From positions 1,426,001 through 1,490,000 of the forward strand of contig NZ_BSDC01000001.1 in assembly GCF_030268045.1 (NCBI RefSeq): a DNA stretch of 64,000 nt, written 5' to 3'. Origin of the DNA: Geothrix edaphica. Its GTDB lineage: Bacteria > Acidobacteriota > Holophagae > Holophagales > Holophagaceae. Position numbers and translations under genes: made by a program. Shown in pieces: positions 49,740-53,493 of the stretch (its first letter is position 1; the number at the start of each line of letters is the position of its first letter). A model generated the notes under the pieces. The model was not told the origin of the DNA, searched no databases, and was given only the letters and a program-made list of their open reading frames with translations.

Positions 49740-51419
49740 CTATCGCCGGTAGTACGCCCGGATCGCGTTCACCACCGCCACGGCGTAGCGCTCGCGGAAG
49801 TCGGGATCGCGCAGGTTGGCGGCGTCGTTCTCGTTGGTGAGGTTGGCCACTTCGATGAGGGCCTTGGTGGCGCCGGTGCTGTAGCGGATGACCGCGGGAA
49901 CCCACTTCCCATGGCCGCGGTAGATGACGTTGCGGATGGGGCGGTTGGCGTGGACGGGGATGTTGTCCTTCTGGAGGGCCTTCAGCAGGGCCTCGGAGAA
50001 CTGGCGGCTGCGGGCCTCGCCCTGCAGCTTCTCCCGGCCCGTGAAGGCCACCCGGCTGGAGCGCTTCGCCTCGGTCACATGGCCGGTCTTGGCTCCGCCC
50101 AGGGCGAAGGTCGAGGGCACCAGGGCCGCCCCGGGCACGTAGACCATCGAGCCCCGCGCGGAGGGGTGCAGGCTGTCGGCATGGAAGCTGAGGAAGAGTG
50201 TTTTCTGGGCATCCCCGCGGGTCTTCCGGAAGGCTGCGAAGAGGTCGTTGGCCAGCACCCAGCGCAGGTGGACGCTCACGGCCGACGGGCTCTCGCCATC
50301 CACGGCGAAGGGCGGGCTGGTGAGGATCTCCGCGGCGCGGCTGGGCGTCCGGATGGCCTCGCGGCTCTGGAAGCCCAGCGCGGGGTAGCGGATGGTGCTG
50401 CTCACCTGGGCGTCGGTCTCCTGCTCGAGGAGGCGGCGCACGCGCATGGTGATGTCGTAGACGAAGTCGGATTCCCAGAGGCCGTTGGCCCGGGCGCCGG
50501 GGTCCACGCCGCCATGACCGGCGTCCAGGATGATCCGCACGCCCTTCAGCTTCGGCCCTGCCTCCACCCGCGTCGTGCGGCGCACTTCGGCCCGGACCTC
50601 GCGCTCCTCGGCCAGGCCCGTGCTGCCCTCGGACTGGAAGGGATCCGCCAGGAAGGCCACGGGGATCTTGACGAGCTGGCCCGGCTGGATGCCGCGCACA
50701 TCGGCGATGCCGCTGCGCTGGGCGATGAGTTCCGCCAGCTCGTTCACGCCCTTGGGATCCACCCGGTCGGTGTAGCGGATGACCACGCTCGAGTACAGCG
50801 CCTCACCCTTGCGCATGCGATAGGCGGCGAACTTGCCCTGGGCGTCCTCGCCGAAGGAGAGCAGCCCGCGATAGGCCGCCACGCGGGCCTCGTCGTCCAG
50901 CTCGTCCTCGGGCTGGGAGCGGTCGGGCCCCTTGCCGAGGCCGCCGAGATCCGCCGAGAGCAGGCTGCGGGGGATCCGCCAGACGTCGCCCTCGCGCAGT
51001 TTCTCGGGCAGCTCCGGGTTCTCGGCCATGAGGCGGTCGTAGTTCTGCCCGTGGCCGGTGAACAGCGCGGCCAGCGTCCACACGGATTCCACCTCGGGAT
51101 GGCTGATCCGGTGGCGGACCTCCTCCTGGCGCCACTGGTCCTCGGGGAACAGGGCCGCGAGAGCCCAGCGCTTGCCCTGGGGGCTGAGGCCCTCGAAGGG
51201 AACCCAGCCGCTGGCATCGGCGCCCTTGGCCAGGAAGGCCTTCGGCAGCGCCTTCCCTTCGGTGCTGAGTCCCTTCCGGAACTGGAGCCGGAGGAGGATG
51301 GCCCGGCCTTCGGGCGTGCGGGCCTGGGCCAGCACGGGGGCGGGTTCCTGCGCCACGGCGATCACCGCGGGCAGCAGGACGGCGGCGTGTCTCAGGCCTG
51401 CCGACCAGCGGAGGCTCAC
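49740..51419 (-). CDS. N-acetylmuramoyl-L-alanine amidase (Amidase_3)
   Basis: This enzyme cuts the bond between peptide and glycan in the cell wall. The product is 559 residues, with a signal peptide and a 290-residue N-terminal part of unclear fold (with LysM-like GQLVKIP at about 245). The amidase domain has the zinc ligands in ILDAGHGGVDPG, GLWESDFVYDI and LSFHADSLHP, and the catalytic Glu in ALIEVANLTNEND. The GTG at 51419 overlaps the stop of the gene before it (GTGA); a GTG three codons earlier is also possible. Confidence 0.9.
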   Translation of the reverse strand: MSLRWSAGLRHAAVLLPAVIAVAQEPAPVLAQARTPEGRAILLRLQFRKGLSTEGKALPKAFLAKGADASGWVPFEGLSPQGKRWALAALFPEDQWRQEEVRHRISHPEVESVWTLAALFTGHGQNYDRLMAENPELPEKLREGDVWRIPRSLLSADLGGLGKGPDRSQPEDELDDEARVAAYRGLLSFGEDAQGKFAAYRMRKGEALYSSVVIRYTDRVDPKGVNELAELIAQRSGIADVRGIQPGQLVKIPVAFLADPFQSEGSTGLAEEREVRAEVRRTTRVEAGPKLKGVRIILDAGHGGVDPGARANGLWESDFVYDITMRVRRLLEQETDAQVSSTIRYPALGFQSREAIRTPSRAAEILTSPPFAVDGESPSAVSVHLRWVLANDLFAAFRKTRGDAQKTLFLSFHADSLHPSARGSMVYVPGAALVPSTFALGGAKTGHVTEAKRSSRVAFTGREKLQGEARSRQFSEALLKALQKDNIPVHANRPIRNVIYRGHGKWVPAVIRYSTGATKALIEVANLTNENDAANLRDPDFRERYAVAVVNAIRAYYRR

Positions 51420-51964
51420 GCCTCCCACGGCGCCTCGCCCGCGGGCAGCGCCTCACCCGTACGCCCCGCCCGGACCCATGCGCGCATGGATTCCTCGAGG
51501 CCGCCGGGATCTTCAGAGCGGGCCTGCAGGAAGACCTTCAGGCGCCGCTCCAGGTGGCCCGCGCCCTCCTCCAGCAGGAAGAGCCGGTCGTGGAGGCGTT
51601 CGTGGGGCGCCTTGCCGGTGCTGGGCGGCAGCTTGAGCGTGCCCATGTCCAGGGTGGCGGCGTTGAGGGTGAACACCCATTCCAGGTCGCCAGAGAGGAT
51701 GCGGAGCTTCATCTTCGCGGGTCGCATGCCGCGGCCGAGGGACTCGAAGGCCTCGCGGCTCTCCGCGGGGTTGCCCTTGCGGAGGCTGATCTCCTTCACC
51801 TCGCCGCGCTCGGAGGCCAGCTGGATGGCGTCGTCCACGAAGCAGCCGGACCCGTCGCCCTCCTCGCCGCTGGCGCCCCCTTCCGTCATGCTGCGCATCC
51901 AGAGCCAGAGAAGGAACTCCTCGCCGAGGAAGCGGCCCTGCTCCATGAGTTCAAGCGGCTTCAC
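51416..51964 (-). CDS. C-terminal half of a split RdgC-like protein
   Basis: The product is 182 residues. Motifs FLGEEFLLWLWMRS, a central GEVKEISLRKGNP and the C-terminal LHDRLFLLEEG resemble the C-terminal half of the RdgC-like proteins of Geobacter relatives as I recall them. The GTG start directly follows the TAG of the N-terminal half in the same frame, with GAGGAGG five bases before it, so the halves are one broken or split gene with a working re-start. See the N-terminal half at 51965. Confidence 0.75.
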   Translation of the reverse strand: MKPLELMEQGRFLGEEFLLWLWMRSMTEGGASGEEGDGSGCFVDDAIQLASERGEVKEISLRKGNPAESREAFESLGRGMRPAKMKLRILSGDLEWVFTLNAATLDMGTLKLPPSTGKAPHERLHDRLFLLEEGAGHLERRLKVFLQARSEDPGGLEESMRAWVRAGRTGEALPAGEAPWEA

Positions 51965-52576
51965 CTAGGCCTCCTCGAGTTCGAGATCCAGCGGATCCAG
52001 GGCCATCAGGCCCTCCACGGACAATCCGGGATTGAGCCGGCCCGCCAGCACCAGGGGCGCCAGGGGATGGATCTCGCAGCCGAAGGACTTGATGAACAGG
52101 GTCGAGAGCGCACCCTGGGCCTTGCTGGAGGAAGCCGTGGTCCAGAGGATGCCGCCCTTGAGATCCCAGGCCACCTCCACCACCCGCGGCGTCGGCAGCA
52201 CTTTGCGCAAGAGCTCCAGCTTCACTTCGTCCTGAAGGGAAATGCGGGCCTCCTTGCCGATGAAGGCCAGGTCCTTCTCCTTGAGCAGGCTCTGCAGCCG
52301 CAGGTCCATGTGGGCCTTGAGCAGGGCCGGCGGCACGCGGCGCGTGTCGATGCGGAGGCCGAAGACGGCGAAGCGCTCCTGCCCGACCCAGTCCTCGTCG
52401 GGCGGCGTGATGAGCGGGTTGCGCCAGTCGCACCAGCCCATGCGCTCCTCCTCCATCCCGTCCTGGAAGGGGCGGAACTGGTCCTGCTCCAGGCCGGCCT
52501 GGAGGTCCTTGGGATCCGGCACAGGGCCGAGCACCAGGAAGCGTTTGAGGGACACGGTCCCCTGAAGGATGCTCAT
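51965..52576 (-). CDS. N-terminal half of a split RdgC-like recombination protein
   Basis: RdgC binds DNA as a ring dimer and modulates RecA. The product is 203 residues. It begins SILQGTVSLKRFLVLGPVPD, with EERMGWCDWRNPL and RFAVFGLRIDTRRVPPALLKAH, as in RdgC-like proteins of about 390-400 residues, and ends at a TAG after ELEEA. The next codon in frame is the GTG of the C-terminal half. Its own start overlaps the phosphatase stop (ATGA). A single base change at the TAG would join the halves. Confidence 0.8.
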   Translation of the reverse strand: MSILQGTVSLKRFLVLGPVPDPKDLQAGLEQDQFRPFQDGMEEERMGWCDWRNPLITPPDEDWVGQERFAVFGLRIDTRRVPPALLKAHMDLRLQSLLKEKDLAFIGKEARISLQDEVKLELLRKVLPTPRVVEVAWDLKGGILWTTASSSKAQGALSTLFIKSFGCEIHPLAPLVLAGRLNPGLSVEGLMALDPLDLELEEA

Positions 52577-53493
52577 GAGGCGGTGCCTCCGAAAAGTCCC
52601 CGCAGCCGGCCCCAGAAGCCGCGGCCAGGGCCCCGGGAATCCGGGTGCAGGAGGTCCAGAGGTTCTCCTGGGGTGGGCAGGGGCAGGGCGGGATCGTTGA
52701 GAACCAGGACCACGCCGGTGACGTTGTCCCGGGCGCCCCGGACGATGGCCTCGTCCAGCAGCAGCTCCAGGCTGCGCCGGGGGCTGAGGTTCTGCTTCAG
52801 CACGTCCTGGATGTGGCCGTCCCCCACTTCGCCGTGGAGGCCGTCGGAACAGCACAGGAGGCGGTCCCCCCGGCGCAGGGCCAGGCGGGAGAGCGCCACC
52901 TTCAGCGGCTGGGGCGAACCGAGCGCCTGGGTGATCATGTTGCGCTGGGGATGGGTGCGCGCCTGTTCCCGGGTGAGCGAGCCCTGGGCCACCAGATCGT
53001 TCACCAGCGTCTGGTCCTCGGTGAGCTGATGCAGGGCGCCCTGGCGCAGCAGGTAGGCCCGGGAATCGCCAATCTGGGCCACATAGGCATGGCCGTTCCA
53101 GATGACCGCCGCCGTCAGGGTCGATCCCATGCCCCGGGCCGTGCGGTCGTCGTCGGAATAGCGCAGCACGGCGTCGCTGGCCTCCCGCACGGCGGCTTCC
53201 AGCGCCTTGATGAGGTCAGCCTCGCGGCCCTTGCCCGGTGCCAGGCGCCCCCAGTGGCCGAAGAGGTACAGGGCGACGGCGGCCAGGCCCTCGCGGCTGG
53301 CCACCTCCCCCGCGGCGGCCCCGCCCATGCCATCGGCCACCGCCACGAGCAGACCCGGCTCGCCCACCTTCAGCGAGCTGGCCGGGGCGTTGATGATGGG
53401 CTCTTCGCCGTCCAGCACGCTCAGCAGGTAGGCATCTTCGTTGTTCCTCCGGACTTTGCCCGGATGGGTGATCGCGGCGAAATCGATGAGCAT
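52573..53493 (-). CDS. PP2C-family Ser/Thr protein phosphatase
   Basis: The product is 306 residues. PP2C motifs are clear: VRRNNEDAYLLS, VAVADGMGGAAAGEVAS, AQIGDSRAYLLR, CCSDGLHGEVGD and GARDNVTGVVLV. These Mn/Mg phosphatases reverse Ser/Thr phosphorylation by bacterial kinases. About 60 residues after the catalytic domain end in a basic tail. Met at 53493 begins the conserved start; an upstream ATG at 53556 is possible. It heads the operon with the rdgC halves and the amidase. Confidence 0.9.
   Translation of the reverse strand: MLIDFAAITHPGKVRRNNEDAYLLSVLDGEEPIINAPASSLKVGEPGLLVAVADGMGGAAAGEVASREGLAAVALYLFGHWGRLAPGKGREADLIKALEAAVREASDAVLRYSDDDRTARGMGSTLTAAVIWNGHAYVAQIGDSRAYLLRQGALHQLTEDQTLVNDLVAQGSLTREQARTHPQRNMITQALGSPQPLKVALSRLALRRGDRLLCCSDGLHGEVGDGHIQDVLKQNLSPRRSLELLLDEAIVRGARDNVTGVVLVLNDPALPLPTPGEPLDLLHPDSRGPGRGFWGRLRGLFGGTAS

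Follow-up and report, generated by a model that had tools for sequence, protein, structure and literature searches.

A central question raised by this locus is what it means when one amber codon is all that separates two consecutive open reading frames. Is it a mark of one interrupted gene, or the ordinary boundary between two? The window analyzed here is a 64,000-nucleotide stretch of the Geothrix edaphica genome (NZ_BSDC01000001.1, positions 1,426,001 to 1,490,000). On its minus strand, an upstream gene of 203 codons (51965..52576), termed N here, starts with an ATG at 52576 and ends with a TAG (51965..51967), and a downstream gene of 182 codons (51416..51964), termed C, starts with a GTG at 51964 that directly abuts the TAG and ends with a TGA at 51418-51416. 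The two frames share one phase, the TAG is their sole separator, and a Shine-Dalgarno-like GAGGAGG (51970..51976) within the final codons of the N gene ends five bases ahead of the GTG, all as a first-pass annotation had described them. The proteins total 385 amino acids, and the pair occurs once in the 3.16 Mb genome. We consider it very likely that the locus encodes a single RdgC-like protein as two halves, in two genes with coupled translation, the halves probably assembling into a heteromeric ring that encircles DNA. Within this reading, the two-gene structure is near certain and the heteromeric ring is inferred.

One possibility, raised by the first-pass annotation, is programmed amber read-through, in which the TAG would sometimes be read to give a 386-residue chain beside the short product. 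Consistent with this idea, the in-phase, TAG-only junction is found in the window and in six named Geothrix relatives, and single-chain homologs exist in another phylum. A comparison of the junction in related genomes, which that annotation had proposed, found no sense codon and a stop in every readable relative. N and C are adjacent at the main locus and lie on separate frames in all 35 same-genus genomes with a readable junction (those without one are G020, where the contig ends after the N gene, and G026, which has no match). Against read-through, the halves are out of phase in most of these genomes, the majority form being TGA plus one base (+1 phase), with an ATGA overlap (+2 phase) in others, and the in-phase forms include TAA|TTG and TGA|GTG as well as TAG|GTG, which G. 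fermentans DSM 14018 shares with the window. Moreover, the start codon of the second gene is kept at the Geothrix junctions, mostly together with a Shine-Dalgarno-like site. We therefore regard programmed read-through as very improbable, since neither the stop codon nor the frame is conserved.

A wider sample gave the same picture. Scanning 84,980 species genomes independently yielded 79 loci, which included Myxococcota and deltaproteobacterial/Thermodesulfobacteriota assemblies besides Holophagae; all 79 are split onto separate frames and none is fused, relative frames 0, +1 and +2 are all represented, and N and C adjoin except where, in a few cases, the assembly is gapped or frameshifted. 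The stop between the halves may be TAG, TAA or TGA. The in-phase arrangement that had seemed special occurs at just 8 of the 59 Holophagaceae-type loci, the others having TGA plus one base (25 loci), an ATGA- or GTGA-type overlap (18), a one-base overlap (5) or gapped or frameshifted assemblies (3), and another family of the class has two frames that overlap by about 11 bases. Judged by these junctions, the amber codon is incidental and marks a normal gene boundary. Rather than a single gene interrupted by an amber codon, the locus thus comprises two genes that abut in phase by chance in one Geothrix clade. Of the options that the first-pass annotation had listed, the truly split protein is the one that held, as the split persists from genus to genus, between families and between phyla, each half has its own start codon and the phase varies.

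A junction that resembles a continuous frame broken by one stop codon could also have arisen from a recent nonsense mutation, or a sequencing error, in a gene that was once single, in which case the locus would be a pseudogene or an artefact. We find this hardly credible, since the stop is present in every readable relative, in differing codons and frames, and both halves are under strong purifying selection, with median pN/pS values of 0.16 for N and 0.13 for C among 23 close relatives. The variation in stop and frame, together with selection on both halves, excludes conserved read-through and recent nonsense mutation for the clade. As a separate observation, one metagenome-assembled genome, G010, has an ordinary pair of adjacent genes (L016) plus a diverged second copy (L068/L116, on G010:C129) in which the N frame is interrupted, with a gap of about 430-490 bases (428 at L068), and the C half is intact; this second copy may reflect contamination or decay.

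What, then, do the two genes encode? The first-pass annotation held that the frames jointly match an RdgC-like protein of about 390 residues, and at the level of sequence families this held for the N protein and not for the C protein. The N protein matches the Pfam family PF04381 (RdgC) with an E-value of 1.2e-8 and 35.1 bits, above the curated cut-off of 25, over profile positions 18-157 of 298, and a profile of N matches the solved Escherichia coli RdgC structure 2owl (E 6.5e-11). It falls short of the NCBIfam RdgC subfamily level, scoring 26-27 bits where the cut-offs are 227-330. The C protein has no family match in Pfam or NCBIfam, a scan of the C half across 34 relatives gave weak single-member matches only, the C profile found no match among solved structures by sequence, and an hhalign comparison of the C half with E. 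coli RdgC was not significant. The C half does align (E 4.6e-7) with an RdgC-like protein from the same genus that is a single chain. Because the direct sequence match to E. coli RdgC is not significant, the homology of the C half is argued through its fold and through single-chain intermediates. The predicted length, in turn, agrees with the single-chain relatives from Thermodesulfobacteriota described below and exceeds the 303 residues of E. coli RdgC. In 13 genomes with the split form, PF04381 matches never number more than one per genome. Centre, tip and base domains are not found in one chain in the window or its relatives, where two separate genes encode them, and the locus is an RdgC-like two-gene variant rather than a classical RdgC.

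Structure prediction connects the C half to RdgC. The pair was folded by AF2 as a concatenation, that is, as a covalent fusion, with in-phase relatives anchoring the alignment of N-only and C-only rows. The resulting model has a pLDDT of 87 and a pTM of 0.82; confidence drops only at residues 206-211, which closely follow the chain junction, and in the C-terminal tail. In a Foldseek search of this model against solved structures, RdgC alone fell below an E-value of 0.001 (2owy once, 2owl twice); the match to 2owy has an E-value of 5e-16 and covers 359 columns at a TM-score of 0.76 on the target, and for 2owy and 2owl together the probability is 1.00 with TM-scores of 0.72-0.76 on the target, so the predicted model has the RdgC fold. 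Weak matches after RdgC include chains of the kinetochore proteins CENP-N/Chl4. The C gene modeled alone (pLDDT 86) likewise has RdgC 2owy as its top solved match (Foldseek probability 1.00, E 1.5e-3, TM 0.48 on the query). In the published description, RdgC comprises centre and tip domains together with a base domain responsible for dimerisation (PMC11077077), and the secondary structure and topology of the model suggest that N corresponds to the centre plus tip domains and C to the base domain.

The single-chain relatives bear on the same point. All 17 candidates of Thermodesulfobacteriota (L258-L274), which were picked for their long frames, carry N and C in one chain of 356-396 amino acids, and the pair model superimposes on a single-chain phage protein, A0A8S5P9L8, with TM-scores of 0.79/0.81. 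The existence of single-chain versions is strong evidence that the N and C genes act as one unit. The split form is nonetheless widespread. N-profile matches occur in 164 of 284 genomes from the phylum of a Polyangiaceae locus and in 144 of 297 from the phylum of a Thermodesulfobacteriota locus. Among the best 30 loci of the former phylum, 28 have a downstream C half on a separate frame, one runs off the contig and one is doubtful; among the best 30 of the latter, 27 are split and three lack a C half in the stretch that was fetched. The 17 single-chain proteins were placed in a tree with 92 rows, where they fall within a mixed clade among split ones; at least three changes of state are needed, of which the starred branches force only one, and from this unrooted tree we claim no direction, fission or fusion. 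Rooting with E. coli RdgC and same-genus single-chain proteins failed, as the outgroups did not group together and sat on long branches.

Some Geothrix-type genomes also encode, besides the split pair, a second RdgC-like protein that is a single chain of 315-333 amino acids (minus strand, L077 3757-4755 and L078 3118-4062; also L079). Relatives of this protein occur on viral contigs (L181/L182), and it may be prophage-borne.

Mobile elements carry the two-gene form as well. On a 60.9 kb IMG/VR contig (IMGVR_UViG_3300024349_000290), both halves are intact and lie about 2.6 kb apart. The viral N half (L282 10716-11321; 57% identical) comes just after RecE-like (L282 12842-14347) and RecT-like (L282 11599-12831) genes, and the C half (L183 2998-3549; 66% identical) is further downstream on the same contig. 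The halves are separated by an SMC/SbcC-like ATPase (L282 9039-10376; phrog_1499, a family of unknown function) and small genes, within a recombination module of the phage type. That both halves are kept within such a module though non-adjacent fits a two-subunit recombination protein. A tblastn search for the C half in named-phage records found no match. In one public record, a plasmid of Nitratidesulfovibrio vulgaris, N is annotated as "RdgC" and C as "hypothetical protein", with 30 bases between them. In this stretch of the plasmid (L283, NZ_CP116247.1 42535-53020), the pair sits between a DNA cytosine methyltransferase gene and CBASS-like genes (SAVED, ThiF, Mov34 and nucleotidyltransferase).

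An alternative explanation is that the two genes share an operon while their products do not form one RdgC-like protein, C being an independent partner of N. In its favor, the C gene has neither a Pfam family nor a sequence match to E. coli RdgC, and the pair was modeled as a covalent fusion rather than as free chains. Weighing against it, single-chain homologs carry both parts in the same order, the C half alone is predicted to fold like the base half of RdgC, and the viral contig keeps both halves though they are not adjacent. We consider an independent partner unlikely, although clearly less so than read-through or a nonsense mutation.

If the pair encodes the halves of one protein, ribosomes would end the N gene at the TAG and restart at the adjacent GTG, helped by the GAGGAGG within the N gene. 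Such translational coupling is suggested by the abutting or overlapping start codons and by the Shine-Dalgarno-like site, which lies within the last part of N, and it would supply N and C chains in about equal amounts. The centre and tip domains would come from the N chain and the base domain from the C chain, and the assembly would probably comprise two N and two C chains, with base contacts made through C and tip contacts through N. By analogy with homodimeric single-chain RdgC, the ring may encircle DNA. E. coli RdgC encircles DNA and limits RecA (PMC9713433, PMC11077077), and the two-chain protein may similarly target recombination intermediates, with limitation of RecA as the probable means. 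Several points count against this reading: the N and C proteins have pI values of 5.1-5.2 and neither is basic overall, the C half does not significantly match E. coli RdgC by sequence, the interface was modeled as a covalent fusion, and the genes that flank the pair differ from phylum to phylum.

In the window, the pair is part of a tight run of four genes (49740-53472), PP2C-N-C-amidase, with ATGA, TAG|GTG and GTGA junctions, and this run is kept in most Holophagaceae-type loci. The upstream gene (52573..53472, minus strand, start approximate) encodes a PP2C-type protein phosphatase (PF13672, E 1.3e-14) whose TGA overlaps the ATG of the N gene, and it precedes the pair in nearly all Holophagaceae loci. 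The downstream gene (49740..51419, minus strand) encodes an N-acetylmuramoyl-L-alanine amidase (Amidase_3; PF01520, E 3.1e-21); its likely GTG start at 51419 overlaps the TGA of the C gene, the mechanical open reading frame beginning at 51428, and it is conserved in Holophagaceae and the f2 family. Between phyla there is no conserved neighbor except the partner gene, PP2C being confined to Holophagaceae-type loci and the amidase to Holophagae, and this restriction led us to drop the operon neighbors as a clue to function.

How does the pair compare with known systems? RdgC (PF04381; E. coli 2OWL, Pseudomonas aeruginosa 2OWY) forms a dimeric ring whose DNA binding is non-specific, and it limits RecA (PMC11077077, PMC9713433). 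The likeness lies in the N half, which scores above the PF04381 cut-off, and in the predicted fold of the pair, which spans the whole of RdgC. RdgC differs in being encoded by one gene rather than two, in having 303 rather than 385 amino acids, and in forming a homodimer where the pair would form a heteromeric ring of two N and two C chains, the C half being unrecognized by sequence. The L258-L274 proteins and phage A0A8S5P9L8 match the pair in the order and the size of their two parts, but they are one chain of 356-396 amino acids. The "RdgC histone" operon protein of Halobacteria and Bacillus shares the RdgC fold outside Proteobacteria, but as described it consists of one chain that also bears additional small domains, and its operon includes a histone and a membrane protein (PMC11390915). 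Lambda RexA and yeast Iml3-Chl4 (CENP-N/CENP-L type) have a base-plus-globular scaffold like that of the pair. Iml3-Chl4 contacts DNA as a heterodimer of two chains with RdgC-like folds (PMC11077077), but each of its chains carries both domains, whereas each chain of the window pair would carry one half.

RdgC has been regarded as a single-chain homodimer of Proteobacteria (PMC11390915, PMC11077077), and an RdgC-like protein, likewise a single chain, is also reported from Halobacteria and Bacillus (PMC11390915). Our literature search, which covered part of the literature, found no description of a two-gene form. Such a form is nevertheless present in a large share of the sampled Myxococcota and Thermodesulfobacteriota genomes, and its second subunit has no Pfam family. 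We suggest tentatively, and with somewhat less than even confidence, that two-gene RdgC is old and common in Holophagae, Myxococcota and Thermodesulfobacteriota, that it forms a heteromeric ring with a base subunit of an unnamed family, and that the single-chain forms of Thermodesulfobacteriota arose by later fusion. Where the first half is labeled "RdgC" and the second "hypothetical protein", as in the one plasmid record, a function may have been attributed to what is one half of a machine. As the halves are naturally separated at a domain boundary, the pair offers a test of which part binds DNA, which dimerises and which touches RecA. If this reading is true, a ring made of two kinds of chain could be opened, exchanged or regulated in ways that are closed to a homodimer.
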